A DNA stretch of 52,164 nucleotides from Dicyema japonicum (Eukaryota; Dicyemida; Rhombozoa; Dicyemidae): the NCBI GenBank assembly GCA_011109175.1, contig RDEW01000039.1, positions 540,053 to 592,216 on the forward strand, written 5' to 3'. The position numbers were made by a program, and so were the translations under genes. A model generated the notes under the pieces. The model saw only the letters and a program-made list of their open reading frames with translations, had not been told where the DNA came from and made no database searches. The stretch's first letter is position 1. Each line of letters begins with the position of its first letter. This document shows positions 1 to 52,164 of the stretch, in pieces.

Positions 1-1323
1 TTTACAATCTAGGTCGTCGACTGGCAATACAACTCCAAGTTTGATTTTGAGTGGATCTCATTAACTACTCGTCTTGAAGATTTAAAGTTCGATATAATTT
101 TAAAACAGATTGAAAATTTCACAAAATACAAAAACTTCGCTGATTTTCAAAGCAGTCGAGAATTCGACGGCTTCTCTTGATCAAATGGAAATAAAAATTG
201 CTCAAGTTTAATTAGTCAAAATTTCATTTTAGAACCGAATTGTGGGGTCATTTGAGATTTTACAAATGCACTTTAAACTTTTTGACCAATCACGTGCTGA
301 AACTGTTTTGAATGAGTTACTTGCCACACTTTTATCAATTTGGACAGTCTTTGTTAATTTTGAATGTGAAAAGGTGCTTTTCGATTTATTCGTAGAAAAA
401 CGGTTTTTCATGTGAAAATAGAACATTCCTCAAGTCTTCGATTGATTCAACTATTCTTATTGTCATGAAATTATCAGAATCCAGTTTTAGGCCGTTCTTT
501 ATGGAGGTTTTATTTATCCTTAACTCTTACTAGGTTTGGTCATGGGCTCTTAATGACCAAGAAGTTACTGAAGAAAACTTGATTAGAATGCTTTACTTTT
601 ACAGATTTTGTCGCAGGTTTCTTATTTGAAAATATAAATTAGGCTTTCGGCTGAGTTGAAAACGATTTTTCTTATATTTGTAAATATTTTCCACGACAAG
701 TATGATTAATCTGCTTTTATTTGGACTTGAAAAAATAGGTACTTGTATATCTTATTGTGTTAGATAAGTTTAGCGATATTCATAAAGATTTGTTTTCTTC
801 GATCTTTGACACTCTATTTTTCTGTTTCGCTAATTCAAATCCTGATTTGTTGATCAGATCTTTCAGTTTGACTCAGATTGGTCGAATTATGATAGATTAT
901 GTTTTTTTTAATTTTCATGATAGATCTTTAAATCTGATGAAATTGGAGACGCTGTTATAAAGCAGAATTTGATCCCTGCAATTTCTCAATATTTTTCTAC
1001 TTATGACGATGAAAATGAATGGCAAAGTATTTCTCAGTATCTTCTAACAAAAGCCAAAGAAAATTTTTCTGAAGTTTATTTTTTGTTTTTCATCTTAGAA
1101 AAACATTTTCTTGACTTTCGATGTATTGGAGTCCATTTGTCGGAAATTATCTGTTAGATTTACAGTCATTCTTCCTCCAATAGTTCCCTTTGTAGCAGAA
1201 CGAATGGAAGGTAGTTTTATAATGTTAAATTAAGATCGCAATGAGATTATCTCAAACAAGTGTAATAACTTTGCACTTTTGGTTGAGGATATTTGTGGTG
1301 AATCGCTCTCCAGTTATTTTTAA
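1..1323 (+). CDS. HEATR1: HEATR1/UTP10 homologue, 3' end of gene (partial, 8 very short introns)
   Basis: C-terminal region (BP28CT) of the HEAT-repeat protein HEATR1/UTP10, an SSU processome component that acts on pre-rRNA in the nucleolus. The gene enters from the left edge; bases 1-12 look like the end of an intron. Conserved segments read after splicing are VMKLSESSFRPFF, VILPPIVPFVAERMED and the C-terminal ending GESLSSYF-stop (stop 1321-1323). Introns that restore the frame lie at 87-108, 206-232, 374-395, 507-533, 617-642, 739-763, 1074-1098 and 1211-1234 (22-27 nt each, GT...AG). Two places need one base added or removed to keep alignment with the family: near 684-701, and near 955 between LETL and KQNLIPAIS. 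They may be sequence errors. The frame and order of segments match the family to its last residue, so identity is fairly sure. Confidence 0.86.
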
Positions 1324-1360
1324 CTTTTATTAAATGTAAATTGTCATATTATTTTTGACT

Positions 1361-1804
1361 ATGAAATATTCTTAATTTTACTATTCTTTGTAAACTTTTT
1401 ATTTTACAAGTTAAGTTACTACATCATCACTGGTAAACTACACATAACATAAAGAGGAAAGGGACTCTTGTCGGTATCCTAGTTATTTAAGGAAAGTCAA
1501 TTCCTTAAGATCATTGAGATGTGTCTGTCTTAATGAATTGGTGACTGGTAGACATGGCGTTTTCTTAATTTTTAACGCCAATCGTACACGGAATTTTTTT
1601 CATTTAAAATTAGTGAAGAAAACGATCTTTTACTCTTCCATTTTTAATACCGGAAGAACTTGTCAAATAAATGAGAGCAACGAGAATTCATTTTATCATA
1701 TAAACGAGGGAAATCTCTATTTTTTAAACTACATAAGTTACAAATTTTTATTATATTGTAATGACATAAAATTTGAAAAAATAATTAAAATAAAATCTCA
1801 GTAA
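1361..1804 (+). CDS. Small unrecognised gene with two 21-22 nt introns, possible signal peptide
   Basis: I do not recognise this gene. After removal of candidate introns 1390-1410 (21 nt) and 1433-1454 (22 nt), a frame stays open from LSYYIITEERDSC to the stop at 1802-1804, about 125 residues. It is rich in Cys, Asn and aromatic residues and contains a possible N-glycosylation site (NANRT). The proposed first exon (ATG 1361) would add a hydrophobic ILLFF stretch like a signal peptide, but it holds a TAA and is one base short, so the start is uncertain. It begins about 40 bases after the HEATR1 stop on the same strand and ends about 120 bases from the convergent TPGS1 stop. A secreted or membrane-anchored small protein is a guess from composition only. 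Confidence 0.35.
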
Positions 1805-1923
1805 GCCAAATTAAGAATTCGTTTTCATTTTGAATAGATGATTCGTCGTAATTCAATAATTTGTTCAAATTATATGGCGAAAGTAAGGAAGCTGATTCAA
1901 CAATTCTAAGCCCTTAGTGATAA

Positions 1924-2529
1924 TCAGTTATTGCTACCGTTTCCTCTTACAATACTTAAAGCTTCCCTTAACGAATCGATTAAACCCTTATAGGTTTCTT
2001 TAGATAGTTTATTCTTACTTAAATAATAATAAAGTTTTCTTCCGGTCGACATGTATTCTATCGTAAAATAAATTTAATCACCTTTTAAGTTTAAAAGATT
2101 CAAAATCGATGCAAAAAACTCATCGTAACTAGCATCGTCATTTAATTTTACACTTTCTTTTATTTTTTGAGGAAATTCTCTAATATCATTATACTTAATT
2201 TATAACTGATATAGGACAGAAATAAACTTGAGAAATAAATTTCGTTCTATATAATGTCCATCGTCTTAACTATAAATACCAATCACTTGATAATAATTTA
2301 AAAGCTGTCAGACAATTCAAATTCATTCGGTATTCATCGTTGTTAATTAAATTAATATGCCATAAAGCTAGCTTAAAGTTATCATTTTCTACAAGTAGAG
2401 CAAAACTAAAAAAAATATAGCGAAAATAAACTGTTCTGTCAAAAACCGAAAAGGACTTGTCGGGCGTTTTTGAAGTAATTCATCTACTGCTGTATCTAAG
2501 GTAGTTTGTAATTCATCATAATTATTCAT
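1924..2529 (-). CDS. TPGS1: TPGS1 homologue, tubulin polyglutamylase complex subunit 1
   Basis: Subunit 1 of the tubulin polyglutamylase complex, which with TTLL1 adds glutamate chains to axonemal and other tubulins. The ATG is at 2527-2529 on the reverse strand and the TGA at 1924-1926. Four introns, at 2406-2431 (26 nt), 2265-2286 (22), 2194-2217 (24) and 2058-2081 (24), give an uninterrupted frame of about 169 codons. The N-terminal part has the family signature, a helical segment with LLQKRPTSPFRFLTEHF followed by FKLALWHINLINN, aligning with ARPxxPxxFLAxYF and ALWHLRLAHH of animal TPGS1. The protein is shorter than vertebrate TPGS1 (about 290 aa), mainly in the linker and C-terminal parts. 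Intron 3 is a multiple of three but holds an in-frame stop, so it must be spliced. No frame damage is seen. Confidence 0.84.
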
Positions 2530-3690
2530 AATCGGTTTGGGAAGTTAATATTTGTTTCTTAACAACAAGTTTATTAATGTTGCCAATCAAACTGTTTTTA
2601 AATTTTATAAATTTATTTTAATAAAAATACGATTTTTAAATATAATTATACGGCTACTTTTACATTTAATACAATCCGACCCCGAGACGGGGTAAAAATT
2701 CCCCAATATTGATGTTTTCCCCAAAAATGCGGGTCTTCTTAAAATGCTAAATAAAAATATAGAAAAAAATTATTTTTATAATATGTATTAAAAAAGACGA
2801 ATCATTAGTAAGTCTATTTAAATTTCTAATGATTCATTAGATTTTTATTTTTTGAAAATAAATCTTTCATTTTCATGTTATTTTGTTCTTTTTTCGTTCT
2901 TTTAAGAAAATTTTCAGGAGTTTCTCATTTTATTACATTAAAATGCATAGTGAGGGCACGTTCCATATCTTTTATGACGTCATACTCTAATTATCTCGTC
3001 TATTTTTATTACTGCTAAGATCATCATAAAATGTCTCTAAATTTTCTGATTAACTGGGCTGTTTTAGTTATCATGTTGTTTTTCTAGTATCATAAAGTTC
3101 AACTTCCAAGCACTTTTCAAAGCAATTTCATATTGCTGATTTATTAATTTTTCCCCGGTCAATTTTAAACATGATATTACATGTTGTGATCCATTTTATA
3201 GCTTAAACCACAGGATTTTTATCATAATTTTTTTATCATCCAATGATTAAAATTTTTAAAAGCTTGATCACATTGCTATATTAAAGAAGTCGTGTTTTTT
3301 GGAAAAAATATCATGTCGATGTTTGAATATTGGAACAAGTATACAAGTTGCATTATCTATGCCTTTTTTGCAATTTTACAAGCAATAAGTGTTAATGCTG
3401 GTTCATTTATCGAAAAACTTTTGCATCTCACAGAACAAAAAACTTCATAAACTTCTGTATTTAATTGGTGCCCATTTACTCAATAAAGTAGAGCAGACTT
3501 TACATATGATTTCTTCCCTTTTCATTTTCAGTTGGTATAGACTAGTTTTAGAGATGCCATTTTTTACGAATAAATGCATAATTTTACAGATCTGACTGTA
3601 TTTCCTACACATTCTAATTTTTTTCATTTTGATTTACGAGTTAGTAAGAGTCCTAGAAGAACACGAACAAGATAAGTATTCGGATTTTAC
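2530..3690. other. AT-rich intergenic stretch, no gene supported
   Basis: No conserved coding segment was recognised on either strand. Short open frames at 3389-3627 overlap each other in opposite directions and have no family signal. A G/C-containing patch at 2684-2745 (ccgagacgggg, tttccccaaaaatgcggg) has a weaker echo at 4080-4125 (tttccccaaaatgaag). The two may be edges of an old element spanning the R2-like fragment, but no clean inverted repeat could be aligned. Confidence 0.4.
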
Positions 3691-3714
3691 CGAAACTCCA
3701 AAGTCCCTTGTACT

Positions 3715-3970
3715 ATGAGACAAATTTCTGAAGGTATTTTTAGAAAAGCATTGTTGTTATGCAAGATTTCTCTAAATTTGTTCCCAGCATTAAATGAGCA
3801 TGCTATTTCGTTACTAAACTGCTACATAGATGTTGTAGAGCTTGAGCCCAAAGAGTATGATGAGATTGATGTTATGATACGTGGAGTACTCAAAGAAAAC
3901 CACGTTCATGCGCTGGCAGCCAAGAAGGAGACTTTACCTCGTGAGAATTCCACAAAATCTAGGTTTCCAA
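3715..3970 (+). pseudogene. R2-like non-LTR retrotransposon remnant (RT thumb region)
   Basis: The translation runs ...LNLFPALNEHAISLLNCY then DVVELEPKEYDEIDVMIRGVL and HALAAKKETLPREN. This is the pattern of the region after the reverse transcriptase core in R2-like and related LINEs: a short Tyr segment, then an acidic E..ELDvxtRkiL segment, then h..kasKerLylPR. Only this part is present; the palm domain and the endonuclease are missing, and the frame loses similarity after about 3970. It is a dead fragment. Family assignment is by motif order only. Confidence 0.5.
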
Positions 3971-4164
3971 GCAGGTTATGTATCCACAAAACGAGGTCGG
4001 GCTGTATTTCGTTACTAATTTTCCCATTTGGAGGTTTATTACTAAAAGAAATTTCATTATTACTATTAAAATGATGAACTCTCCCTAAAATGCAGGTTTT
4101 TTGCGCAGTTTAGGTTTCCCCAAAATGAAGACTGTATTTAGAAAATGCTGCATAAATAATAATT

Positions 4165-5199: not shown

Positions 5200-5832
5200 A
5201 TGCTTAGAGATTTATTTTTATTAACGAGAGGTCCATTTCGATATAGAAAATTCTCATTTTTTAATATCGTTTCTAATAAAGAACAAGAATATAAAGAACG
5301 CCGTTTATTAGGGTTTGCAATTAAAACTTAAAATAAGATACAATAAAGAACAATTATATGAAATAGCTGCGAACGTAAAAAACTACCCCCATTTTGTTCC
5401 CTGGTGTCATAAAGTCGTTGTGATTCCCGAAACTGATTCGAAATTTAAAGCTATTATGGAGATTGGCTTTGGAAATGTAACGACCAAATATTTATCTACG
5501 GTTACTACAGAAAAGCCTAATTTTGTTGAAGTTCATTATTTTTTAACTTTTTAAAGTCTCACTGCAATGATTCTGAATTTTTAATAAGTTAAATTGTGTT
5601 TGGAGATTTGACGACGCTAAGAATGAGAACCAATGTTATTTAGATTTCATGGTTTGATTTAACTATTTACTATATTTTTATTTTTTAATTTATATTTAAG
5701 GTTGTCTTCCATTTCAGATCGGCCTTACATTCGAAAATTTCATCAATCTTCTTTAATGAAGCTAGTAGTAAAATTGTCTCTTCATTCATAACTAAAGCAA
5801 ATGAATTGTATGGACCTCCTGCTAAATTATAA
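5200..5832 (+). CDS. COQ10: COQ10 homologue, mitochondrial coenzyme Q-binding START protein
   Basis: COQ10 family protein (SRPBCC/START fold), which binds ubiquinone in the mitochondrial inner membrane and is needed for efficient respiration. ATG 5200-5202 is followed by an Arg- and Phe-rich leader (LRDLFLLTRGPFRYRKF) suited to mitochondrial import. Then come the family landmarks ERRLLGYNKEQLYEI, NYPHFVPWCHK, CVWRFDD, FHFRSALHSKISSIFFNE and the C-terminal LYGPPAKL (stop 5830-5832). Introns: 5313-5337 (25 nt), 5531-5556 (26 nt), and 5652-5700 (49 nt, the longest seen in the window). Between SHCNDSEFLIS and LNCVWRF the alignment is gap-free at protein level but needs one extra base near 5590. 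That is a single-base frameshift, either a sequence error or early decay. Length otherwise fits the family. Confidence 0.88.
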
Positions 5833-6783: not shown

Positions 6784-7282
6784 ATGAGTTTAACTGGTAC
6801 TAATGGTGATGAAAGTAATTGACGATACGGTGACGATAGAAAATTATAAATATAACTTTTCAGAATCTTTAAACAAAATGTTAAATGAATCAAACGAATT
6901 AGCAAAAAATAGTACAAGATTACATGAATCTAATGATGCCATGGAGGAATCATTTAAGGATGAAGAAGTATCATACAAAAAATGCAGTGGGATACTAGAA
7001 AATAATTTTCAAAATATCTACAAAATTCCTGAATATTTAACTAAAGTTGAGAAAATCTCAAAATATATTAAAGAAATTCAAAATACTGTTAAAGATTTAA
7101 AAGCTCGTACAAATGTTTTATTGGCCAACTCTGAAAATAACACTGAAAAAATAAAATTAAGTCAAGAAATGGAAAATAAGAAAATTCAGCTAAAACAAGA
7201 AATGGACAGAGAACATGATATTTCGATTACAATTATTCCCGAAAAACAAGTAAACTTTAACCTTAAAAATAATCAAAAATAA
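6784..7282 (+). CDS. Coiled-coil protein, about 157 aa, one 25-nt intron
   Basis: ATG 6784 (MSLTGTNGDE) joins across a 25-nt intron (6815-6839) to KNYKYNFSESLNKMLNES and continues open to TAA 7280-7282. The alternative start at 6803 in the unspliced frame seems less likely. The product is Lys/Glu/Asn-rich with heptad-like spacing throughout (NMLNESNELAKNSTRL, KVEKISKYIKEIQNTVKDL), so mostly alpha-helical. It has one Cys and no membrane segment. Size and helical character recall small subunits of BLOC-1/BORC-type complexes, but no diagnostic motif was seen and I do not assign it. It follows SINE-A on the same strand and its frame is undamaged. Confidence 0.6.
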
Positions 7283-10245: not shown

Positions 10246-10819
10246 ATGATTGAGGAATATCAATTGGACGAAACATCACCTACCTACTATATTTCTTATA
10301 TTCGTGGATTAAAGGATCCAATAAATTTATATGAATTAATGAACGAAAATCTAGTTTTGATAAAACCAGAATTAGTAATATTTTTATGACAATTAGATTT
10401 ACAACAAATTTCAACTTATAATAGCTTGCCTTTCAGCTTCACTAAGGAAAAAGTCGTCAAAATTAATTACAAAGTCATTTTCAAGAGAGGTTTTGGTGAA
10501 CCTGTCGATTAAACGTAAAGTAGTTCTTTATAAATTTAAAAATCAGATTTTTGATGCAATCAAACTATTTGGGTACGAAAATAGCGACAACGTCCTTATA
10601 TGCTCTACTAATAAGAATTTGTTAATCAATTGTCTCAGTACGATCAAAGGAGATTATACGTCGACTGATAAATTGAGACAATTCTGTTCGTTGACAGAAA
10701 TTTATAAAGTTTTTTTTATGTTTTAATTTAAGATCTACAATATCGACAACTATGAAGCTATGGATGAAAGGGATATCTCCTCCTTGATTTTATCGAAAAT
10801 TGCTATTTTTAATTTATGA
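10246..10819 (+). CDS. TPRKB: TPRKB / CGI-121 homologue, KEOPS subunit (apparently intact)
   Basis: Homologue of TPRKB (yeast Cgi121), the KEOPS subunit that binds the Bud32/PRPK kinase and tRNA during N6-threonylcarbamoyladenosine (t6A) synthesis. ATG 10,246, TGA 10,817-10,819. Introns are 10,375-10,396 (22 nt), 10,520-10,546 (27 nt) and 10,709-10,732 (24 nt). The spliced product is about 166 aa, close to the usual 175. Landmarks are YQLDETSPTYYIS near the N-terminus, VNLSIKRK joined to IFDAIKLFG (family NLS....ISEALKKFG), NVLICSTNKN, and LTEIYKIYNIDNYEAMDERD near the end. Intron 2 is a multiple of three with no in-frame stop, so an unspliced transcript would read through with nine extra residues. 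No frameshifts. It is one of the cleanest genes in the window. Confidence 0.86.
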
Positions 10820-14713: not shown

Positions 14714-15641
14714 TCAACTTCTTAAGTCTTTTGAATGTATTTTCATTACCGATCCATCACTATTTTCCACATTGACAAAATTGTTAGACAATTTTGCAAA
14801 AATAGTAACTGGATCCCCATACGGATGTTCGAACTTTGTTAATTAGAAGGATTCGTCATAATCTTTTGAATGCGAGCCTTTTAAGTAATTAAAAATTGAA
14901 TACAATATCTTCAACATCCAAAACATATTTTGAGCGATGTACTCCCATTTTCCTATTCATTTTCTTATAATATGAGACTCCAAATTAATTTTAGGAAAAT
15001 TAAACTCAAATTCATCTAAAAATATATTTGAATACAAAACCTTTTCTAAATGTTTCTATGTTGTCTCGTTCAGTATTGTTTTTTTACTAAGTATTAATCC
15101 TGGAATCCCACGATATCTTTGGAACGGACTAACTCCTACGAAAAAATATAGGAAACAATTTACCTGTAGATAAGTGAGGCGTTTGATTATACAAAAAACA
15201 GCTTTTCGAATGTATCTCACCAACTCCTTTTCATTATCCAAACTCATCATTTTTGACAAGCTTCTTGTGATCTTCTGGTTAAATATCTCCACAAACCCTT
15301 GACTTTGGGGATTGTTGGGTCTTCCATGTATTTGCATAACTTTGTCATATGACAATTTTTGAATTCTGTACCATTGTCGGATTGTAAATATTCCATAAAA
15401 ATTTCTTCTAGTTTATGGGCCACTTCATTTCCACTTTTATTCACAAGATTTTTCGTAAAAGCACATTTGGAATAAACATCAACAACAGAAAGCAACCAAG
15501 AGAAATGATTATTTTGATCTTTAAATCTATAAAATAACATAAACTTTCAGACCTTTTAAGATCAATCAGATCGACTTGAAATTTCTCATTAGGCGCATCG
15601 GAAACAATATGAGTTGAATCATCATATTGTTTTCGTGGCAC
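14714..15641 (-). CDS. DDE integrase, Ginger/KRBA2-like, with three or more 26-28 nt introns
   Basis: A retroviral-type integrase core. The reverse strand reads APNEKFQVDLIDLKR (first Asp), an intron at 15,527-15,552 (26 nt), HFSWLLSVVDVYSK, LQSDNGTEF (second Asp), IHGRPNNPQSQGFVEIFNQ (Glu), YNQTPHLSTG, an intron at 15,136-15,163 (28 nt), VSPFQRYRGIPGLIL, RSKYVLDVEDI, an intron at 14,878-14,903 (26 nt), and HPYGDPVTIFAKL ending HSKDLR-stop (14,714-14,716). All three catalytic residues are present. Single-base shifts occur after EF (near 15,345), before YNQTP (near 15,200) and near 14,850. The N-terminal zinc-binding part is not seen. The HG.P..PQSQG.VE form resembles Ginger transposons and the KRBA2/SCAND3 integrases rather than Gypsy. 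Host-like introns suggest either intron gain in an element or a domesticated gene. Confidence 0.72.
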
Positions 15642-19739: not shown

Positions 19740-20127
19740 GAGGAAAGAAAGACAAACCTTTAACCAAGTAATCAGTGGGATAATCGAATCCAGGACCAAT
19801 CGTAATTGCAAAGCTATTTTTAACTTTATCAATATCATTAACATTATCATAGGAAAAAATGTTTAATATTCTAATTAAGTTCCCACATGTGCACGAGACT
19901 ATCATCCAGCCATTCACACGATAAGATATATGTGATTGATGATGTATATGAGTATTAAGAATACAATGATAAAGAAGATACAAAATATGAAGAAATTCTT
20001 TATGGCGAATCCTTTCTGAATAGAAATCAATATTTCGGTGAAAAACGTAGAAAATAATTTTAAAAAAATTAGACGATTTGAGTGTAGCCGAACTTGAAAA
20101 AGTTGTTGGATTTCTTAAAAGTGACAA
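19740..20127 (-). CDS. Uncertain short-intron gene fragment with a possible membrane segment
   Basis: A reverse-strand frame contains VSCTCGNLIRILNIF and FAITIGPGFDYPTDYLVKG, followed by a good GT donor at the LVKG codon. In another frame just upstream lies a strongly hydrophobic stretch (NFFIFCIFFIIVFLILIYII) that a 21-nt candidate intron (about 19,900-19,920) could join. No family recognised. The RTE copy begins to the right at about 20,150 and may have broken the gene. Confidence 0.25.
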
Positions 20128-20149
20128 AGTTCGAGATATTATGTGTCTA

Positions 20150-22150
20150 ACAATCTCAAAAGAACGAAACTATCCTGAATGCTATTGTCAACTATTGAGG
20201 ACGTACTCGGAATACGAATCTTCGTCGTTGATATTTATTGCCGGGGACTTTAACGCTAAAGTTGGGATGCGACGCAGTGGAGAGGAATCGTTCATCGGCA
20301 GGCATGGACGGGGTGGAGAAACACCCCGGGAACACTACTGGCCAATTTCTGTCAAGCGAATGATCTTTTCATAGGAAACACTGCCTTTATGCACCCAGCT
20401 CGCCACAGGAGCACATGGACTGGCCATAGAACGAACTCGGAAAACAAAAGTGTCAATATTTATAATCAAATTGATTACATCATTTGTCGGACCAAGGACA
20501 AACACCTACTGAATGATGCCCGTTCTTATGGAGGGTCGATGATAAATAGTGACCATAAAATGGTTATTGGCAAGTTCTCCTTGAAGAAATACTACATTGG
20601 CAAAAGAACCTGAGTCTAAGCAAAACGCTACCACCTTACCATACCCATGTATATATGACTGAGAAGCTCTGGTCTCAGCTGCTGCTGGTGACAAACTACC
20701 AAAAACATATAGAGAACCACCTATATACATTGCCAGCTAATTATGACTATACAAGACCTATGGGATCAGACCAAAAGCATTATTTGCCTTGCCGCAAACA
20801 CCCACCTTGGAGTGAGACGGCAGACAACCGGAAATATGTTCACTTGGCCATCCAGACTCCTTATTACTGGCAAAACAACAACGAGAAATATGGATTACGA
20901 AAAGTTCTTGCATCTGTTGCTTTGGACCGCTTAAAACATCCTGCAGGAAATTACCTATCAGCATGCCATAGTGGATTTCGTGAAGGAAGGTCGACAGCGG
21001 ACATTCTGTGGAGCCACAGGTGGCGGTGTGCAACGGCTCAAAGATACAAAAATGCCACGACCATCCTGGGCATCGACATGTCAAGAGCTTTCGACACCAT
21101 TAGCCGACACAAGCTAATGGTTGTCCTTCATCAATTTGTGGACCAATCATTGCTACGGATAATCAGAGTACTTCTCTCAAGTACTGAACTGTCAGTCCGA
21201 ATTGGGAGAACTCTATCCCGACCATTCAAAACTACAATCGGCACTCCTCAGGGAGACTCCCTCTCCCCCTTACTATTTGTGATATATCTCGAAGCTGCAC
21301 TAAAGGATCTAAGAACTTGCTATGAAGGAAAAATAAACGAAGTCGTATACGCGGATGATGTGGATTTTATATCCGAGGATACAGAAGCTCTCACACATCT
21401 GCTGGAAAATGCACCGGACAAACTGGGGGAATGGTTCCTCATCGTTAACCGGGCCAAAACGGAAATCACGGAAATCAAAAGAATGGACAACATCCTTAAT
21501 GAACGTTGGCGACATGTTAATAAGCTTGGATCCCTACTGGGGGACACAGAAGACATCATCAAAAGGAAAACACTTGCAGGAGTAGCAATGCGAAAACTCA
21601 AAAAGGGATGGCTGAAAGGACTAGATGTCAATCTGCGGATACGCATGTACAATGCATTTGTGAAACCGATACTGACATACAATGCTGGTACTTGGGCCTG
21701 TACAGGTGCGGAATCAATGGCTCTCGATGGGTTCCACAGAAAACAGCTTAGAGTATTATTTGGCATGCAGTGGCCAGCCAGAATCTCGAATACCGGTATT
21801 TACAAAAAATGCAAGAGTAGGCCTCTAAGCCTGGAAATCACTGACGCCCGGTGGAGACTGTTTGGTCACGTACTACGCATGGATCTTGCTGCCCCGGCTA
21901 ATGTGGCGATGGAGGACCATTTCATGTTCGAGGGCAAATGCTTCCGTGGCAGACCAAGGATGACCCTACCTATCATGCTGCACAAAGACCTCCAAAGGAT
22001 GAAGAAATGCCTAAAGACGGGAGACGATCTGGACATGCTGAGATCGACTGCGTGTAACCGTGGAGGATGGAAGAGGCTAACTAATAACATTGTTTCTTGT
22101 ATTGCACATGCTTTGCTATAACTATTATGGCAAGGCGATAAGTGCTGTAA
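20150..22150 (+). mobile_element. RTE-type LINE with the longest reverse transcriptase frame in the window
   Basis: The endonuclease C-terminal part (FIAGDFNAKVGMRRSG near 20,240, IYNQIDYIICR near 20,460, NSDHKMVIGKF near 20,560) is followed by a long frame at 20,655-22,121. That frame carries SGFREGRSTADILW, GIDMSRAFDTI, TIGTPQGDSLSPLLF, VYADDVDF, RMYNAFVKPILTYNAGTW and RWRLFGHVLRM. The catalytic YADD is intact. A short taataataa tail is at 22,150-22,160. The N-terminal half of the endonuclease is missing and the region 20,330-20,900 has frameshifts, so it is 5'-truncated and probably dead, though younger than other copies. The GDFNAKVG and W.LFGH.LRM signatures suggest the RTE/CFDP2-like group. 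Confidence 0.82.
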
Positions 22151-29038: not shown

Positions 29039-30732
29039 ATGTTGAAAATGTATTGTAATTATAATTTCAGTTTAATTTGCGGGGAAGTTGACGGTGAATT
29101 CGAACGTTTATTTGAGAAAATCAACAAAATCAATGCCAAGTCTAATATGATGTATTAAAATTAATTATCATAGCTTCTCATTTGTGTAGGAACTTTTTTA
29201 GCGATTATAAATCGTTAAATACATTTGACACCAGTTTAGGTTTCATTATAACAAAATTCAGTTAATATTGATACGTATATTTTCTGTCCTCAGGAACCAC
29301 CGATTCCCTTCGATTCACCAAAATCAAATACTTTCGAAAATCACAAGTTTTTGATCTTCCTAATGGAGTGGTCCTCGCTTACAAAGAAGAGACGACAAAT
29401 TTTCCTGGAAAAGATATTGATATTCTCATCACTCCAAAATTGCCTTATGGCGTGTTAAATATGTCGAGGATTCTGATGAAGTTAGGGTAATTATTTTAAC
29501 AATTGTAAGAACAATAATTTACATCTTTACGTCGACTTTGGTTGTCGTGATGCTGCCAGAGCTGTCCGCATGTTGAAGCCTAGGTACCATTTCTCATTGA
29601 CTGAGAGATGTTCGTATGAAAGGCCACCTTTTAGGTTAAATATTATTTCATTTTTTCAGAATTGTCAATTCAATGGGAACTGAGTTGCTATCTCATTTTA
29701 TATCATTGACCAAAGTGGGAAATTTTAATTTTAAGGTATCCCATGATTTTAACTGTTTAGTGGTTATACGCCTTATCGATTAAACCGGTCAACCTCTCTA
29801 GTCCAGATGAACTATTTCCCGCTGTCGATTATACTGAGAATCCTTATATTGAACAGTTTAAAAATGACCCAACTGATGACAAAAAGTCAACAATGAAGTC
29901 ACATAACAATCCGCACTTTTTTTCGGAACAACTTGGCATATTCGAAGAATCATCCCAAAGTGCATCTGTGTGTCAATTTAGGTACCGAGATCGAATGTAT
30001 GTTTTGTCCTAGGTCTTCAAACATGGAAAAACATCTCATCATAGACGTATTTGATCGCGTATCTTCAATTATTAACTACTAGTGCTACCTGTCATTAGCT
30101 AAAGGCGGCATTGATCTTTATCACGTTGTAATCTCACCAATTGACCACATACAATCATTCGTTTGTTTGGACTCTGAAACAAAATGATTTCAATAGGTTC
30201 CTTGATTTATCATTGTAGATTTAAATATCTGATCGGCCGATTTTATGCTCAATTTGAACGAGTTCCGTTTATTTTTGAATGTAATTTCCACAATCATCAC
30301 CTCCAATTGCAAGTTTTGCCAGTCTTATTTTAGGTTGTCGCGATTCCAGTCAACTTGGTTGATTTTATTGTCGAGACTTTGCATTCTTATGCTCGTAATC
30401 TTTTTGGTGGTATCCGAGTTGTCTTCTATGGATGACCTCCTTGAAGTTTGGATGATTTCATAAAATTTAGGTTGCCGGTTCTAATCAGCCGTATTTTTAT
30501 GCGGAGATTGGCACCGTAGGAAGGTACTTTATTTCATTGAACAATGTTAATAGCTTTCCTAGTAATTTTGGAAGGTACTCTCTTATGGTTTTTGTAGGGA
30601 AATTGTATGTGATGTACTTAGATGTGGTAATCAGATAAATTGGAGAGTCTGCATTCTTGAGGAGGGCTGAATGAAAAAGGCTAATGTTGAGAGTTTAGAA
30701 AATCGCTCAGACATTTTAGTTTGGTTAAATAA
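29039..30732 (+). pseudogene. CWF19L1: CWF19L1 homologue, copy 1 (most damaged)
   Basis: Same exon order as copy 2, with readable segments LICGEVDGEFERLFEKI, KDIDILITPK, DDKKSTMKSHNNPHFF, CMFCPRSSNMEKHLIIDVF, the CYLSLAKGG region, and NWRVCILEE near the end. Compared with copies 2 and 3 it has single-base losses in the exon ending NYD (aatatgat), in CVGNFF (gtaggaac) and after CGVLN (29,460), plus extra bases in the last exon (gagggctgaatg). The short introns are in the same places. The number of shifts is higher than in neighbouring genes, so it is probably a pseudogene. Confidence 0.82.
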
Positions 30733-36144: not shown

Positions 36145-38470
36145 ATCTGAAAACTAAGTATCCAGAAAGATGGGAGTTCATGGGTGTAGTTTTCGTCAAT
36201 TAAAAAAGAGCTACATCTATTGAATGTCTAAAGAGAGCATTGTAATCGGTAATTTTCGTCTGAATTTCATCAATGTAAACTTCCATTATAATGATGCTGA
36301 TCTCGGATTTTCCTTGACGTCTCAATATGAAAGCAAAATACGGCAACACCCTCGATACATGATTGCGGGATAGCGAACTTTCGACTCTTTTTCACCATTT
36401 CAAGTGGACAATAAACTAATTAATTGAGTCAAAAGACATTTTTAGTCAACTTTGATGGAGCTCAAATTTAATGTTTCCTTTGATTTTGCATTCTAGAGTG
36501 ACAAATAAAAAACCTAATTAAATAAAACAGACTATATTAATTCATTTTAGTTAATTTTTAAAAATGAATAAAAAATAAATAGATTATATTATTTAAACAA
36601 AATTATTGATTTTTTCATTATTTTAGGTTAATTAGTATTCATAATTCATATTAATGTTGAAAATGTATTTCAAATATAATTTCAGTTTAATTTGCGGGGA
36701 AGTTGACGGTGAATTCGAACGTTTATTTGAGAGAATCAACAAAATCAATGCCAAGTCTAATTATGATGTATTACAATTAATTATCATAGCTTCTCGTTTG
36801 TGTAGGCAACTTTTTTAGTGATTGCGAATCGCTAAATACTTTTGACACCAGTTTAGGTTTTATTATAACTAAATTCAGTTAATATTGATACGTATATTTT
36901 CTGTCCAGAGGAACCACCGATTCGTCTTAATTCACCCAAAATCAAATACATTCAAAAATCACAAGTTTTTGAACTTCCTAATGGAGTGGTCCTCGCTTAC
37001 AAAGAAGGAACGACAAATTTTCCTCAAAAAGATATTGATATTCTCATCACACCAAAATGGCCTTGTGGTGTGCTTAACTATCTCGAGGATACTGATGAAG
37101 TTAGGGTAATCAATTTAAAAATCTAAGCACAATAATATAAAATATTTCGTAAAATATGGATGTCATGATGCCGCCAAAGCTGCCCATATGTTGAAGCCCA
37201 GATATCATTTCTCAGTGGGTGAGAGATGTTCATATGAAAGGCCGCCTTTTAGGTTAAATATTATTTCATTCTTTTAGAATTGTCAATTCAATGGGAACTG
37301 AATTACTATCTCATTTTATATCATTGATCGATGTTGGAAATTTCGAATTTAAAGTTTCCTTTGATTTTAACCGTTCAGTGGTTATACGCCTTATCGATTA
37401 AACCGGTCAACCTCTCTAGTCCAGATGAACTATTTCCCGCTGTCGATTATACTGAGAATCCTTATATTGAACAGTTTAAAAATGACCCAACTGATGACAA
37501 AAAGTCAACAATGAGTCACATAACAATCCGCACTTTTTTTCGAAACAACTTGGCATATTCGAAGAATCATCCCAAAGTGCATCTGTGTGTCAATTTAGGT
37601 ACCGAGATCGAATGTATGTTTTGTCCTAGGTCTTCAAACATGGAAAAACATCTCATCATAGACGTATTTGATCGCGTATTTTCAATTATTAACTACTAGT
37701 GCTACCTGTTATTAGCTAAAGGCGGAATTGATCTGTACCACGTTGTAATACTACCAATTGACCACATACAATCATTCGTTTGTTTGGACTCTGAGACAAA
37801 AGATGATTTCAATAGGTTCTTAGATTTCTGATTGTAGGTTTAAATATCTGATCGTCAGTTTTATGCTCAATTTGAACGAGTTCCGTTTATTTTTGAATGT
37901 AATTTCCACAATCATCACCTCCAATTGCAAGTTTTGCCGTCTTGATTTAGGTTGTCGGGATTCCAGTCAACTTGGTTGATTTTATTGTCGAGACTTTGCA
38001 TTATTATGCTCATAATCTTCGTTTGGTGGTATCCGAGTTGTCTTCCCAAGATGACCTCCTTGACGTTTGGATGATTTCATAAAATTTAGGTTGCCGGTTC
38101 TAATCAGCCGTATTTTTATGCGGAGATTGGCACCGTAGGAAGGTACTTTATTTCATTGAACAATGTTAATAGCTTTCCTAGTAATTTTGGAAGGTACTCT
38201 CTTATGGTTTTTGTAGGGAAATTGTATGTGATGTACTTAGATGTGTTAATCGGATAAATTGGAGAGTCTGTATTCTTGAGGAGGCTGATGAAAAGGCTAA
38301 TGTTGAGGAATTTAGAAATGCGCTCAGACATTTTAATCTTATTAAATAAATTAATTTCTCTTATATCGTTTATAAGTAAATGAATGACACGTGTTCAAGA
38401 ATAATTAATATTCATTTGTTTTTACATAAGGAAAATGGTATTTATTAAAGTTCTTTTGATTCTCTGAATT
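36145..38470 (+). repeat. CWF19L1 duplication unit, copy 2
   Basis: Matches 28,535-30,760 and 46,010-48,330. It lacks the extra downstream segment that units 1 and 3 share. It includes about 500 bp upstream of the ATG with the divergent short frame. Confidence 0.87.
36654..38349 (+). CDS. CWF19L1: CWF19L1 homologue, copy 2 (best preserved)
   Basis: CWF19-like protein 1 family, related to yeast Drn1, a partner of the lariat debranching enzyme Dbr1. ATG 36,654; a 21-nt intron joins MLKI to LICGEVDGEFERLFE, then NYD to LLVCVGNFF (metallophosphatase-like fold). KDIDILITPKWP, MLKPRYHFSVGERCSYERPP, WLYALSIKPVNLSSPDELF, CMFCPRSSNMEKHLI and CYLLLAKGGIDLYHVVILPI follow, then the HIT-like HNHHLQLQ (CwfJ C-terminal domain 1). 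SNQPYFYAEIG, FPSNFGR spliced by a 23-nt intron (38,194-38,216) to EIVCDVL, and NWRVCILEEADEKANVEEF (CwfJ domain 2) end at TAA 38,349. About twelve introns, all 20-25 nt. Two single-base losses (near 37,511 and 37,855) break the frame; both could be sequence errors. Confidence 0.88.
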
Positions 38471-43079: not shown

Positions 43080-45537
43080 TTTCATTTACTAATGACGATC
43101 TGGACGCGATGAGACATGGAACAACTACCGACTGATTCTCTTCCCAACTGAATGCAAGCACTATGGCATGGGATTTGCCTTACACATGGATTACCTCGAA
43201 AAACTACATCGCTATCGGAGAGGCAACGACAGAATATGTGTCCTACAAGTCAAACTAAATGATCTATGCCCGTCCAAGAGTATATTAACTGTCATAAATG
43301 TCTATGCACCACATTGTAGACGAGTAATCAAGAAATCCATTGAGCTCGATGAACTCTACTCGGAACTAAAAAGCACATACTCTGATAATAATGCTTCCTC
43401 GTTTCTTGTCTTTGTTGCTGGAGATATGAATGCAAAGGCCGGAATGCGAATGGGGCCCGAAAAATCCTCTATTGGAAGACACGGGGACGGAAGGAGAAAT
43501 GCATCTGGAGCCTCTCTGGTGAACTTCTGCGGGGCAAATACCCTATTTCTGTACAACACGGACTTCACGCACTAAGCTTGCCACAAGACGACATGGCACG
43601 GATAAAGAAAAAACTTTGTCGAGAAGACCGTGAATATATAATCAAATCGACTACATTATCTGCCGAAAGTCTGATAAACACCTGCTAAATGATGCACGTT
43701 CTTACCAGGAGACAACAACTGATAGCGACCACAGGATAGTCATTGCAAAACTTTCTTTAAAAAAATACCTGACTGGGAAAAATACATTGAAAACGCGAAG
43801 AAGGCAAGACAAAGGCCCAATATATACTTTCAGACAGAAAAACTGTGGTTAGAGCCCACTGTAGAGGTAAATATCACGAACAAATCGAGACTCTTATGGA
43901 GAAAACCGCACCGGAATTGTCAGTACGAACTCTGTGGTATCAAACAAAGCAGGTAGTCTCCAAGTCAGCCAATATATGCCTTGGAGTCCGAAATCATTAC
44001 GCCCTAAAATTGGATCACCACCCAAACGTGCCAGATATGGCAAAGCATTGCAGAGAGCTAAGGCTAAAAAACGGCAAACACGTCAGACAAGAGTATAAAA
44101 AAGAGCTTAAAATCCAACAAAGGGAACTAAAATAGAAAATCAAAAATATGAACAGAAAACACTCACGGGAAATTATTACATCCCTATTAAAAGATTTGGA
44201 ATATTTAAAGGACAATTCAAGGATGTTTGCGGCTGCTGCAGACAAAAAAAACAAAACGCCCTTCACATCAAAGAAAAAAGATAGAAAATTCGTGGGTACC
44301 CGAAGAAGAGTTCTGGGTCGGACAACATAACCCCTGAGCTCCTAAAATATGGGAAAAAAAAACATAGCGACACAATTGCAAAAACCCTAAATGACATCTT
44401 TGAAACTAATACCGATCTAGGACTTGGAAATGGATTATTAATACCCATACAAAACCGAACAAATCAAAAGGACCAGTAGAAAATCTCCGCCCGATAATAT
44501 TTCTGAATTCGATGCTGGCAAACATTGCACTAAGTCGGATGAAAGGTGTGGCGGATCTAGGTATAGACCTATCAGCAAGTCAAAGTGGGTTCCGTGAAGG
44601 GAGGTCTACGGCAGACATTGTATGGATCCATAGATGGCGCTGCGCAACGCACCAAAGATTCAAGAGCGCAACGACCGTGTTGGGAATAGATTTCTCCAGA
44701 GCTTTTGACTCAATAAACAGACAGAAACTGATGAATGTGCTTGAGCAAAAATTGGATGAATCGTCGGTTAGGATAATCAGACTACTACTTGCGAATACAA
44801 GACTATCTCTGATGACAGATGGAGCAACTTCCCGCAGTTTCAAAACAACGATTGGGACACCCCAGGGTGATTCCTTCTCCCCTTTACTATTCACCATATA
44901 CCTTGAATCTGCACTCCGCGACCTTCGTAAATGCTATATAGGAGACATAGAAGAGAAATCTTATGCGGATGATGTGGATTTCGTATCACGAGACGCGACC
45001 GCACTCCAACACCTACCAGAAAATGCACCTGCGGCGCTTGAGAAATGGTTTCTCAGCGTAAATGTAAACAAAACTAAAATTACGGAACTCAAAAGAGATG
45101 ACGATATTACTCATGAAAGATTGATGTGTGCGGTAATCAAGATTAACTGGCCTATAAAGATCTCTAATGCAAACCTTTATAATAAATACAAATCCGTCGT
45201 ACTGTCAGATGATATTTTCAAATCAAGATGGAGCCTCTTTGGCCACGTGTTGTGCTTAAATGACCAGTTCCCCGAAAATGTCGCAATGGATAACTACTTC
45301 GCACACACAGGAGCCGGATTTCGCGGAAGGCCAAGAACTACACTTCCGACTATCTTGAACGAAGACCTATCGGCGGTTGGTATGAGACTAACTTCGGCGG
45401 ACAATCTGGACTACCTAAGAGAACTACTGCACAACAAGAAGATCATGGTCGAGGTTGACGGAGAGGATGATTAGGAATACGGCACAAGGGAAACTTAACT
45501 AATTTGTTTTCTCGGAGTGCTTTTAATAATAATAATA
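43080..45537 (+). mobile_element. RTE-type LINE, longest copy, internal deletion
   Basis: Endonuclease: ICVLQVKLNDL, LTVINVYAPH, VFVAGDMNAKAGMRM with SIGRHGDG (43,168-43,575), then NQIDYII-like and SDHRIVIAKLS readings. The reverse transcriptase frame at 44,512-45,474 has SQSGFREGRSTADIVW, GIDFSRAFDSI, TIGTPQGDSFSPLLF, SYADDVDFVSRD, RWSLFGHVLCLND and FRGRPRTTLPTILNEDL. Compared with the copy at 20,655, about 90 codons are missing between HERL and MCAVIKINW, without loss of frame. The (taa)n tail is at 45,520-45,537. Frameshifts around 43,575-44,500 make it non-functional. Confidence 0.82.
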
Positions 45538-46009: not shown

Positions 46010-48330
46010 GGACTGAGTATCCGGAAAAGGCGGGAATTGGCTGTTGTGGGTTTAGTTTTGTCTCATGAAAAAGAGCTAAATAGAAAGCATTGTAATTTGG
46101 TAATTTTTGTCTGAATTTCATTGATGTCAACTTCTATTATGATTAAGGATGATCCGTGATTTTCTTCGACGTCTCCATATGAAACCAAAATACGGCACCA
46201 CCCTCGACCCATGATTCCGGAATAAGGAACTTTCGACTCTTTTTCACCATTTCAAGTGGACAATGCAACCACATAGTTGAGTCACAAGACTTTTTTAGAC
46301 AACTTTGATGGAATCTTAAATTTAATGTTTCCTTTGATTTTGCATTCTAGAGGTGACCAATACAAAAGACCTATTTAAATGAAACAGACTATATTAATTC
46401 ATTTTAGTTAATGTTTCAAAAATAAAATTAATTATATTATTTAAACAAAATTATTCACTTTTTCATTATTTTGGGTTAATTATATACATAATTCATACTA
46501 ATGTTGAAAATGTATTTTAAATATGATTTCAGTTTAATCTGCGGGGAAGTTGACGGTAAATTCGAACGTTTTTTTGATAGAATCAACGTAATCAATGACA
46601 AGTCTAATTATGATGTATAAAAATTAATTATCATAGCTTCTCATTTGTGTAGGCAACTTTTTTAGTGAAACCGAATCGTTAAATACTTTTGACACCAGTT
46701 TAGGTTTTATTATAACTAAATTCAGTTAATATTGATACGTATATATTTTGTCATCAGGAACCACCGATTCCTCTCAATTCACCCAGAATCAAATACATTC
46801 AAAAATCACAAGTTTTTGATCTTCCTAATGGACTGGTCCTTGCTTACAAAGAAGAGACGACAGATTTTCCTCGCAAAGATATTGATATTCTCATCACACC
46901 AAAATGGCCTTCTGCTGTGCTTAAAAATCTCGAGGATACTGATGAAGTTAGGGTAATCATTTTAAAAAATTTAAGCACAATAATATAAAATATTTCATAA
47001 AATATGGTTGTCATGATGCCGCCAAAGCTGCCTACATGTTGAAGCCCAGATATCATTTCTCAGTTGGTGAGAATTGTTCGTATGAAAGGCCGCCTTTTAG
47101 GTTAAATATTATTTAATTCTTTTAGAATTGTAAATTCAACGGGAACTGAATTGCTATCTCGTTTTATATCATTGATCAAGGTTGAAATTTCGAATTTAAG
47201 GTTTCCTTGGATTTTAACCGTTCAGTGGTTATACGCATTTTCGATCAAACCGGTCAACCTATCTAGTCCAGATGAACTATTTCCTGCTGTCGATTATACT
47301 GAGAATCCTTATATTGAACGGTTTAAGAATGACCTAACAGACGACAAAATGTCAAATGAGACACATAACAATCCGCACTTTTTTTCCAAACAACTTGGCA
47401 AGTTCGAAGAATCAACCCAAAGTGCACTTATATGTTATTTTAGGGACCGAGACGAATGTCTGTTTTGTCATAGGTCTTCAATCGTAGACAAACATCTAGT
47501 CATAAAAGTATTTGATCGCGTATTTTTTAAATTATTAACTACTAGTGCTACCTATCATTAGCTAAAGGCGGAATTGATCTGTATCACGTTGTTATACTAC
47601 CAATTGACCACATGCAATCATTCGTTTGTTTGGACTCTGAGACAAAAGATAATTTCAACAGGTTCCTAGATTTATCATTTTAGATTTAAACATCTGATCG
47701 GCCGATTTTATGCTCAATTTGAACGAGTTCCTTTCTTTTTTGAATGCAATTTTCAGAATCATCACCTCCAATTGCAAGTTTTGCCAGTCTTATTTTAGGT
47801 TGTCGCGATTCCAGTCAACTTGGTTGATTTTATTGTCGAGACTTTGCATTATTATGCTCATAATCTTCATTTGGTGGTATCCGAGTTGTCTTCTAAGGAT
47901 GACCTCCTTGACGTTTGGATAATTTCATTAAATTTAGGTTACCGGTTCTAATCAGCCGTATTTTTATGCGGAGATTGGCACCGTAGGAAAGTACTTTATT
48001 TCATTGAACAATGTTGACAACTTTCCTAGTAATTTTGGAAGGTACTTTTTATGGTTTTTTGTAGGAAAATTGTATGTGATGTACTTAGATGTGGTAATCG
48101 GATAAATTGGAGAGTCTGCATTCTTGAGGAGGCTGATGAAAAAGCTAATGTTGAGGAGTTTAGAAAATGGTTCGACATTTTAGTTTGATTTAATAAATTT
48201 AATTTCTCTTATATCGATTATAGGTAAATAAATTATACTTCTTCAAAAATAATCACTGAATTCCTTTTTCTTCACAAAAAACGATAGATCTTTTCAAAGT
48301 TCTTTTGATTCATATTGGATTTAAGTTCGA
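46010..48330 (+). repeat. CWF19L1 duplication unit, copy 3
   Basis: Same layout as the other two units. Downstream continuity with unit 1 resumes at 49,405-49,560 and 51,445-52,164 (tcaatatcgcttggtatact and the following 600 bp), so LINE, SINE-B, hAT and satellite sequence were inserted after duplication. Confidence 0.85.
46501..48203 (+). CDS. CWF19L1: CWF19L1 homologue, copy 3
   Basis: ATG 46,501, MLKI spliced to LICGEVDGKFERFFDRI, CVGNFFSETESL, YIQKSQVFDLPNGLVLAYKE, ILITPKWPSAVL, YMLKPRYHFSVGENCSYERP, PDELFPAVDYTENPY, CLFCHRSSIVDKHLVI, then a 26-nt intron to CYLSLAKGG. FNR spliced to FKHLIGRFYAQFERVPFFFE and NFQNHHLQLQ follow, and SNQPYFYAEIG to the C-terminal NWRVCILEEADEKANVEEF. One base is missing near 47,182 (gttgaaatttc, gttggaaatttc in copy 2), one near 47,450 and one in the last codons. 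It differs from copy 2 at many codons, so it is not a recent duplicate. It may be functional if these shifts are sequence errors. Confidence 0.85.
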
Positions 48331-48344
48331 TGTATTTGTGGATC

Positions 48345-50059: not shown

Positions 50060-50880
50060 AATCTGAATTGGAAACTTGGATTTGAAGGTGACTAAGGCTT
50101 TTCTGAAATGTGCCATTCCGCTTAACAAATTATCAACGCCTTTGTTCATTGATCTTTTCAAATACAACCAAATTTCCCTTCCTTCGAAATCGCAAGTAAG
50201 GAACTGTGCCAAATATGTTACAAAAAATACATAGCTTCGTTCAGGGTATATTCAAGTATTTTATCAAATTTTATTTTCTAGAGAACAAAAAATTTTTGCG
50301 ATAACCGATGAAACTCGAATCCGAAACAAACGATGTGTCGCGGTTTTGATGGGATTAATCAAACTTCCTAAAATTACTTATTTGGTCTCATTCAAGCCAA
50401 TTGAGTCTTCACCTACAAAAATATTATAGCACAGATTGTTGATGATTCGATCCGAAATATAACGGGATAATTTTATGCTTTTTATTTCTGATGCTGCAAG
50501 GTATGACAGCCGGTATTGTTTTAATTCATTTATGATTTAGCTGGGAAAATTTAATAAAAAATTATATCCTAATATTTTCGTGTCAATTGCGCCGCCCATA
50601 ATTTGCAAAATTGTTCTATGGAAATCAGAAAATCTTATCCAGAAGTAGATGATGTGATAGCTAGCGTACAAACTTCTATTAGGAAGAACAAAAGCGAAAA
50701 TTGTTGTTTTCCGAAATTGGAATTCCTACCAAAATTATTCGTTCCTTATATATTGTCAGTCATCCTCTGCATCTGTCGAAAGATGTTTTTCCAAATTCAA
50801 GAGTTTTTTGAGGACAAACAGAAACTTTTGTACACGAAATCTGGAAAATTACGTAATGTCCATTTTCAATAAATATTCTT
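50060..50880 (+). pseudogene. hAT transposase, degenerate
   Basis: Across frames: VTKAFLKCAIPLNKLSTPLF with LPSKSQVRN; IFAITDETRIRNKRCVAVLM; ISDAARY; VNCAAHNLQNCSMEIRKSYP with EVDDVIASVQTSIRKNKSE; and the C-terminal dimerisation part SSASVERCFSKFKSFLRTNR. These follow the order of hAT transposases (catalytic DET region, CAAH/LAH, dimerisation). Multiple stops. It lies with the satellite at 50,950-51,440 inside an insertion that splits the downstream part of unit 3 (49,560-51,445). Confidence 0.8.
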
Positions 50881-50949
50881 TAAAAAACATTTGTATTTTA
50901 TTGTTTCATATCTATATTTTACAGGTTTAAATTGAAAATAAATAAAGTT

Positions 50950-51440
50950 AATTTTTTTCAAATTTTAAGGTTAAAAACTTGGTTTATAGGTTAATAAAGT
51001 TAACCTTTTAAAGTTAAATTTTTTTCAAATTTTAAGGTTAAAAAGTTTGGTTTATAGGTTTATAAAGTTAACCTTTTAAAGTTAAATTTTTTCAAATTTT
51101 AAGGTTAAAAAGCTTGGTTTATATTAATAAGTTAACCTTTTAAGTTAAATTTTTTCAAATTTTAAGGTTAAAAAGCTTGGTTTATAGGTTTATAAAGTTA
51201 ACCTTTTAAAGTTAATTTTTTCAAATTTTAAGGTTAAAAAGCTTGGTTTATAGTTTAATTAAGTTAACCTTTTAAAGTTAATTTTTTTTCAAATTTTAAG
51301 GTTAAAAAGCTTGGTTTATAAGTTAATAAAGTTAACCTTTTAAAGTTAATTTTTTTCAAATTTTAAGGTTAAAAAGCTTGGTTTATAGGTTAATAAAGTT
51401 AACCTTTTAAGTTAAATTTTTTCAAATTTTAAGGTTAAAA
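50950..51440. repeat. Minisatellite, about 8 units of about 65 bp
   Basis: Each unit contains caaattttaaggttaaaaag, cttggtttata and taaagttaaccttttaa. Units differ by single-base indels. Within a unit aaggttaa and ttaacctt form an inverted pair, so each unit can fold as a hairpin. It sits at the 3' side of the hAT remnant, and similar ttaaggttaaa words occur on its left side near 49,720. Confidence 0.9.
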
Positions 51441-51444
51441 AATG

Positions 51445-52164
51445 TTTGCCTTAGTAATCATATTTTTCACTACCTTAAAATCAATATCGCTTGGTATACT
51501 GGTCTACTAGGGACAATGATATGTCTTGACTGCAACCTAATTTTTGAAAAAATTGGTAGAATCGTTTATTAATATATAAAAACACTTTTTAGGAAAATTT
51601 ATTTTGTTTTTTTTTTGTAAAAAGATATTTATTTAGCCTTGGTCCCTTCAAAATTTCTAAACATGTTCTTTTTCTTTTCGTTATGAAAGGCATCTTTTTC
51701 TTTTATGATGCAAGAACCCGTTTCATGTTATATTACGACTATGACATCACCTATTTGACTACGCGGCGGTCCTTCAAGTGAAGGATACCGGTTGCTAAAG
51801 TCACAAATAAGAACTGAGACTGCAGTTGTATTTCATGAACCAAATAACTCGAAAGCGGATCCCGAAAAGAGAAGAGATGGCCTTCTCTGGTTGTCTATAA
51901 GGCGAAAAAACAAAATGAGGATGTAGATTCTCCGATTCTGTATAAATAAGAATTTAAATTCATATGATGACCACAGAGGAGGTGCTCCAAGTTGACACCA
52001 ACTTAACGATGTAGGGATGCCTCGCTTCCTTCAATGTTTGGTGGAGGACTTCCCTAGAGCTTTATGATACCATGACAGATGGCATTAGTATAAACCCAGT
52101 AGTGAATCATTTTAAGGCTCAAATAAGTGGGTTCATTCTCTGGGATTGTTAGATAAATGCAAAA
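51445..52164. repeat. Downstream part of duplication unit 3 (copy of 31,180-31,760)
   Basis: Close match to 31,180-31,760, including tcaatatcgcttggtatact, gttgtattt and ctcgaaagcggatcc. A patch at 51,660-51,770 is extra here. Weak open segments (forward ...NSKADPDKRKGGLLWL in unit 1, NSKADPEKRRDGLLWL here) are conserved between the copies and could be coding, but no family was recognised. It runs off the right edge. Confidence 0.75.

Follow-up and report, generated by a model that had tools for sequence, protein, structure and literature searches.

Ultra-short GT-AG introns with a likely branch-like motif in a probable dicyemid genome

We analysed the introns of a window of 52,164 nucleotides (nt; positions 540053-592216 of contig C125) in a genome of 64.67 Mb and 191 contigs. 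A first-pass annotation had described the introns of this window as nearly all 20-29 nt long with GT...AG ends, spliceosomal, and dicyemid-like. Both the lengths and the spliceosomal assignment held: 48 of the 56 introns modelled in the window were 20-29 nt, the same short lengths were found beyond the window in PRPF8 and kinesin loci on other contigs, and the genome has U2 and U6 genes with canonical boxes. These are very probably ordinary spliceosomal introns of the U2 type that have shrunk to a near-minimal frame; the host is an animal, most likely a dicyemid. We infer from sequence that the segments are removed from RNA by splicing.

Intron length was assessed with our own spliced protein-to-DNA aligner, which allowed introns of 10-2000 nt at a near-flat length cost and imposed only the end dinucleotides. 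For kinesins, a profile was made from 70 of 120 listed relatives, and 20 target loci were picked from 70 genome matches. With GT-AG ends, 139 junctions were aligned and 39 were well flanked. Thirty-three of the 39 were 20-29 nt; the other six were 10, 30, 70, 1020, 1038, and 1828 nt. As a chance control, seven non-GT-AG pairs yielded 0-3 junctions of 20-29 nt each vs. 33 (20-29 nt/well-flanked: GA-AG 2/9, GT-AC 1/8, CT-AC 1/2, TG-GA 3/6, AG-GT 3/3, GC-AG 0/2, AT-AC 1/8). With mixed ends allowed (GT, GC, or AT; AG or AC), 38 of 77 well-flanked kinesin junctions were 20-29 nt, and the 30 non-GT-AG candidates ranged from 10 to 351 nt with no common length. PRPF8 was aligned to one mammalian template. 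Of its 19 GT-AG junctions, 18 fell at 22-26 nt; the remaining one (189 nt) was set aside, being upstream of the likely start codon. The PRPF8 alignment score was 5106 with GT-AG vs. 3111-4090 with four decoy pairs, and the identical 18 junctions were retained when GC, AT, and AC ends were allowed.

A homology-free test counted, for 14 end pairs, the removals that join two frames each open for at least 50 codons. At 20-29 nt, GT-AG gave 174 removals vs. 113 for CT-AC and 118 for AG-GT, pairs of equal expected frequency. The corresponding counts were 147, 125, and 151 at 30-39 nt, and 341, 379, and 342 at 40-59 nt. This open-frame test favours short introns; its support is modest. Kinesins, PRPF8, and the window copies of CWF19L1 were then pooled, giving 192 aligned junctions, 86 of which passed a flank filter. 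Of these supported junctions, 74 were 20-30 nt long, as were 62 of the 106 that failed the filter. The 71 distinct pooled introns of 20-30 nt had a mean of 23.5 nt (standard deviation 1.85), a median of 23 nt, and phases 36/8/27. The annotation had put the dicyemid average at ~26 nt; the shortness was borne out, and the typical length here is 23 nt, not 26. Codon-usage gene finding with flat intron lengths was rejected: low penalties joined noise and high penalties left few genes. Seeding it with kinesin splice sites sharpened a 20-25 nt peak in round one, after which the models drifted into noise. Low penalties also led models of HEATR1, COQ10, TPRKB, and others to break up open exons; these models were not used.

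In the 71 introns, the exon end showed A at -2 (frequency 0.69) and G at -1 (0.58), and the intron started with GT followed by A (0.54) or T (0.39). A preference for G at +5 is usual in animals; here only 0.18 of the introns had it, indicating that this preference is gone. In the accessible text of a 2008 study of 41 introns, dicyemid 5' sites are described as the weakest known (PMC2483917). The annotated endings TAG, AAG, and CAG predominated in a set of 131 distinct aligned introns of 20-30 nt (TAG 69, CAG 34, AAG 22, GAG 6).

These 131 introns, of which 71 passed the flank filter and 60 did not, were compared with shuffled interiors. A was found at -7 in 76 vs. 42.7-42.9 expected (family-wise p 0.0002), with a frequency of 0.56 in the flank-filtered part and 0.60 in the unfiltered part. 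The word TNAY with its A at -7 occurred in 38 of 131 vs. 10.7 expected. A second set was obtained from genes predicted under six settings with acceptor weights blind upstream of -3. In introns of 21-27 nt outside the first set (198-367 per setting), the frequency of A was 0.47-0.53 at -7 and 0.41-0.48 at -8, and in predicted introns outside 20-30 nt it was 0.23-0.33 at -7. The last setting gave 229 introns, with A at -7 in 119 (67.7 expected), at -8 in 109 (67.6), and at either position in 184 (114.3). TNAY with A at -7 was present in 57 of them (16.4 expected), and 13 had no A at -6 to -9 (59.0 expected). The signal was absent from 78 predicted introns outside 20-30 nt (frequencies 0.33 and 0.29). 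In 46 distinct window introns of 20-30 nt, A was at -7 in 26 and at -7 or -8 in 31, and 8 had none at -6 to -9; these counts have no computed expectation, and some of the introns came from a model that used the branch region. A motif model converged on T-N-A-Y-T. These results indicate that the TNAY motif is likely a U2-type branch-like site, whose A mostly lies at -7 or -8 and at a distance of 15-18 nt from the 5' end. We think it fairly probable that the enriched A is the branch point itself. The annotation had stressed how little room is left for a branch point; the introns are indeed tight, yet a branch-like signal is present in both sets (131 and 229 introns). It had also proposed the window as a source of splice rules, and lengths, GT...AG ends, and a positional motif could all be derived.

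The likeliest position of the A was +15 in introns of 21 nt, +16 in those of 22 nt, +16/+17 at 23 nt, +18 at 24 nt, and +17 at 25 nt. Between introns of 22 nt and those of 25 nt, A became more frequent at -9 (11/87 vs. 30/51) and less frequent at -7 (62/87 vs. 20/51; Fisher p 0.0003 for this decrease). Thus, extra length seems to be partly absorbed 3' of the branch site.

Several results weigh against near-minimal introns with a branch site at a set distance. Twelve of the 86 supported junctions fell outside 20-30 nt (19, 34, 39, 65, 70, 86, 87, 189, 223, 608, 1020, and 1038 nt); for 7 of these 12, the flank score on one side did not exceed 12. In the homology-free test, the raw counts at 20-29 nt for TG-GA (194), GT-AT (180), and AT-AC (174) equalled or exceeded that for GT-AG, which ranked first of the 14 pairs only after division by dinucleotide frequency. 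The second branch set consisted of gene-model predictions without a homology check, partly at the same loci; the motif is weak in each single intron, and the base composition is extreme. Introns of 26 nt gave no resolved branch position. Fits with a single position preferred anchoring to the 3' end (-2653 vs. -2694). Branch position changed with length at a slope of 0.29 (bootstrap 0.11-0.49), a value inside the shuffled range of 0.23-0.83. A ruler measured from the 5' end is therefore suggestive only.

The preference for 3' anchoring also bears on another explanation, in which the introns are real and the A at -7/-8 forms part of a compact element of the 3' splice site that U2AF-like proteins read, the branch point being variable or elsewhere. 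T at -5 was enriched as well (77/131 vs. 58.7 expected) and T at -6 was common, as in a pyrimidine-rich element. However, TNAY is the sequence one would expect for U2 pairing, and the 25-nt introns have their A most often at -9 rather than -7 or -8. We consider such an element an unlikely source of the signal, and a U2-type branch-like site the better account.

In a PRPF8 tree of 20 rows, this genome grouped with eight animals (support 100/99), with no resolved position among them; the modelled PRPF8 piece was 78% identical to mammalian PRPF8. A dicyemid host would fit the intron lengths and also the genome size, 64.67 Mb being close to the 67.5 Mb of D. japonicum (PMC6736024). Genes for small nuclear RNAs (snRNAs) were judged by Rfam cut-offs; the best candidates alone were scored, so the match counts are lower bounds. 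U2 is multi-copy, with at least 25 genome matches, at least 22 of them over the cut-off, and GUAGUA in both copies aligned. U6 had at least 10 matches, at least 9 over the cut-off, with ACAGAGA in the single copy read. For DBR1, at least one match scored 35.1 bits (cut-off 26); it is short, covering 23 of the 138 profile positions.

Minor-spliceosome RNA genes were also found: U12 (at least one match, 85.4 bits, cut-off 53), U11 (at least one, 67.6 bits, cut-off 39), and U6atac (one of at least four matches over the cut-off, 37 vs. 33 bits). The best U4atac match, at 32.4 bits, was below its cut-off of 53. None of 14 control genomes had U11, U12, U6atac, or U4atac over the cut-off. The three genes share contigs with short-intron kinesins (U12 on C68 with L033, U11 on C1 with L025, U6atac on C34 with L023), making host contamination unlikely. 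These scores suggest that a minor spliceosome is probably retained. Its RNA genes are probably a new finding for dicyemids, as no paper on a dicyemid minor spliceosome was found in the literature searched.

Such genes over their cut-offs would fit the removal of some short introns by the minor (U12-type) spliceosome. U12-type introns have the consensus RTATCCTTT at the 5' site and TTCCTTRAC at the branch site. However, a genome pattern search for U12-type site pairs up to 55 nt apart gave 28 matches vs. 28 for the reversed pattern, and 764 introns (mostly predicted) scored for U12 likeness formed no separate class. The CWF19L1 intron at 37354-37378 speaks for this explanation, with a score 2.58 standard deviations above the mean, second of the 764 and best of the homology-aligned introns. 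A textbook-looking U12-type site pair, the best match by eye, occurs at two places on contig C62 (L051, 977640-978240; L052, 1001590-1002020). It was rejected; the two are near-identical repeats, in one of which a stop interrupts the upstream frame. We therefore doubt that the minor spliceosome accounts for any of these introns. It is equally improbable that both spliceosomes operate at their physical lower limit in one animal with ~23-nt introns, a working minor one splicing introns of <30 nt; if true, these would be minor introns shorter than any surveyed. A pan-eukaryotic survey of minor introns excluded introns <30 bp for every species, and no word with "dicyem-" occurs in the accessible main text (PMC10639083), so the survey leaves the dicyemid minor-intron question undecided. 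Its shortest average minor introns, just under 42 bp, are those of Blastocystis, in which minor introns are known, whereas here only minor snRNA genes were seen. With U11, U12, and U6atac genes kept in this genome, it becomes testable whether minor introns shrink as far as major ones.

A further explanation, that the segments are short DNA inserts excised from the working genome like the internal eliminated sequences of ciliates, is highly improbable: eliminated sequences of Paramecium have a similar length (26-28 bp peak; PMC9942806) and a Dicyema assembly has many circular contigs (PMC6543705), but the strict GT...AG ends at which other pairs fail, the U2-like branch motif and exon-side AG consensus, and the many U2 and U6 genes all argue against it.

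For ordinary U2-type introns, the proposed layout would be an exon ending in AG; an intron starting with GTW, then a T/A-rich stretch of ~12 bases under weak constraint; a TNAY branch site, its A at 15-18 nt counted from the 5' end; and a further 6-8 bases up to a YAG end. U2 and U6 would act on these introns in the usual way, and the exon-side AG may partly stand in for the usual intron-side +5 G. The lower length limit would then be set by how near to one another the spliceosome can place the 5' site, branch point, and 3' site. In a 22-nt intron, ~15 nt separate the 5' site from the branch A and ~6 nt follow it, which is close to the minimum that spliceosome geometry allows. Such introns in an animal whose spliceosome parts are animal-like offer a test of the distances that splicing really needs. 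Genomes of this kind will be mis-annotated by gene finders and read mappers run with customary minimum intron sizes.

Ultra-short dicyemid introns have been published (Aruga 2007, PMC2222250; Zverkov 2019, PMC6543705, citing Ogino 2010; Lu 2019, PMC6736024), so the short length itself is already known. The accessible parts of these papers give a mean of 26.2 ± 1.9 nt for 16 introns, a median of 27 nt for Dicyema sp., and a mean of 38.2 nt for D. japonicum. An animal host and a uniform ultra-short length are shared with the present introns, which are shorter (median 23 nt in the 71 introns, which were selected as 20-30 nt). In the literature searched, the 2008 paper was the only one found on dicyemid branch sites, and its accessible text reports no branch signature in 41 introns (PMC2483917), in contrast to the motif found here. 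A branch-like motif at a nearly fixed place in dicyemid-type introns is thus likely new. The ciliate Stentor coeruleus, according to the accessible text of PMC9505925, likewise has tiny GT-AG introns (15-16 nt) in which the position of a putative branch A is fixed (10th of 15 or 11th of 16 nt), and it has canonical U2 GUAGUA and U6 ACAGAGA. Its placement is far stricter, with A at the 10th position in 90.90% of all introns, and no minor snRNA was detected there, whereas U11, U12, and U6atac are over the cut-off here.

The 56 modelled window introns belong to CCDC113 (9), TEDC1 (7), TPGS1 (6), and three copies of CWF19L1 (12, 12, and 10). Eight are outside 20-29 nt (19, 30, 32, 34, 38, 50, 53, and 54 nt), five of them within CWF19L1 copy 1. 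The CWF19L1 junctions came from protein alignment; copy 2 also matched PF04677 (58.3 bits) and PF04676 (39.1 bits) above the Pfam cut-offs:
29039-30661, plus strand: CWF19L1 copy 1, 12 aligned junctions, 7 of them 20-29 nt
36654-38337, plus strand: CWF19L1 copy 2, 12 introns, all 20-25 nt
37354-37378, plus strand: copy 2 intron, 25 nt, weakly U12-like, top-scoring of the homology-aligned introns
46501-48173, plus strand: CWF19L1 copy 3, 10 introns, all 21-26 nt
46512-46532, plus strand: copy 3 intron, 21 nt, equal length in copies 1 and 2
46615-46636, plus strand: copy 3 intron, 22 nt
46704-46725, plus strand: copy 3 intron, 22 nt
46953-46975, plus strand: copy 3 intron, 23 nt
47101-47125, plus strand: copy 3 intron, 25 nt, equal length in copies 1 and 2
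47520-47545, plus strand: copy 3 intron, 26 nt, 24 nt in copies 1 and 2
47662-47683, plus strand: copy 3 intron, 22 nt
47778-47798, plus strand: copy 3 intron, 21 nt, 21 nt in copy 1 and 20 nt in copy 2
47913-47937, plus strand: copy 3 intron, 25 nt
48042-48064, plus strand: copy 3 intron, 23 nt, equal length in copies 1 and 2

Intron lengths were near-constant where the three copies could be compared (21/21/21, 25/25/25, and 23/23/23; one 24/24/26). Copy 1 has frame-shifting differences from its sister copies; such small differences among the copies indicate that some are decaying copies or contain assembly errors. The three stand in a row in the window. A fourth CWF19L1 copy is present on contig C112 (L042), and a further CwfJ_C_1 gene, CWF19L2 by eye, on C62 (L039).

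Junctions of CCDC113, TPGS1, and TEDC1 were taken from a gene model that was constrained to short introns and trained on the spliced-alignment results; they therefore illustrate the length distribution and neither test nor prove it. The spliced models matched Pfam families above their cut-offs as follows:
23093-24392, minus strand: CCDC113 gene, PF13870, 122.3 bits
24260-24282, minus strand: CCDC113 intron, 23 nt
23963-23988, minus strand: CCDC113 intron, 26 nt
23916-23941, minus strand: CCDC113 intron, 26 nt
23876-23894, minus strand: CCDC113 intron, 19 nt, doubtful
23736-23761, minus strand: CCDC113 intron, 26 nt
23631-23654, minus strand: CCDC113 intron, 24 nt
23451-23474, minus strand: CCDC113 intron, 24 nt
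23319-23342, minus strand: CCDC113 intron, 24 nt
23141-23162, minus strand: CCDC113 intron, 22 nt
1785-2529, minus strand: TPGS1 gene, six introns, PF24480, 29.8 bits (cut-off 27)
2436-2456, 2406-2431, and 2265-2286, minus strand: TPGS1 introns, 21, 26, and 22 nt
2180-2206, 2058-2081, and 1913-1937, minus strand: TPGS1 introns, 27, 24, and 25 nt
26113-27439, plus strand: TEDC1 gene, seven introns, PF14970, 28.3 bits (cut-off 27.4)
26233-26258, 26314-26343, 26350-26371, and 26614-26642, plus strand: TEDC1 introns, 26, 30, 22, and 29 nt
26823-26875, 27104-27126, and 27253-27274, plus strand: TEDC1 introns, 53, 23, and 22 nt

For TPRKB, the claim that short introns join conserved protein was confirmed: the spliced protein matched CGI-121 (Pfam) with 76.3 bits, the matched residues spanning all three introns. 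In a COQ10-like gene, the single 49-nt exception named in the annotation is present, and its removal gives one open frame. The introns of these two genes are:
10375-10396, plus strand: TPRKB intron, 22 nt
10520-10546, plus strand: TPRKB intron, 27 nt
10709-10732, plus strand: TPRKB intron, 24 nt
5313-5337, plus strand: COQ10-like gene intron, 25 nt, next exon matching Polyketide_cyc
5531-5556, plus strand: COQ10-like gene intron, 26 nt, closing the Polyketide_cyc-matched exon
5652-5700, plus strand: COQ10-like gene intron, 49 nt

Exon 5339-5530 of the COQ10-like gene matched Polyketide_cyc (Pfam) with 44.4 bits. The 53-amino-acid piece after 5652-5700 matched no Pfam family; we tentatively take the part 3' of this intron to be COQ10. 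By eye, the frame appears to change within 5557-5650, between introns 2 and 3, without an intron there; a pseudogene or an assembly error seems to be the cause. The coiled-coil gene was modelled under the short-intron model as a single uninterrupted exon (6803-7282). A stretch at 14839-15598 (minus strand), integrase-like by eye, gave a gene model without a match to any Pfam integrase family, and an Rfam scan of the window found no family over the cut-off. Two long stretches, 19939-22121 and 44512-45474, resemble retroelement reverse transcriptases in motifs judged by eye.

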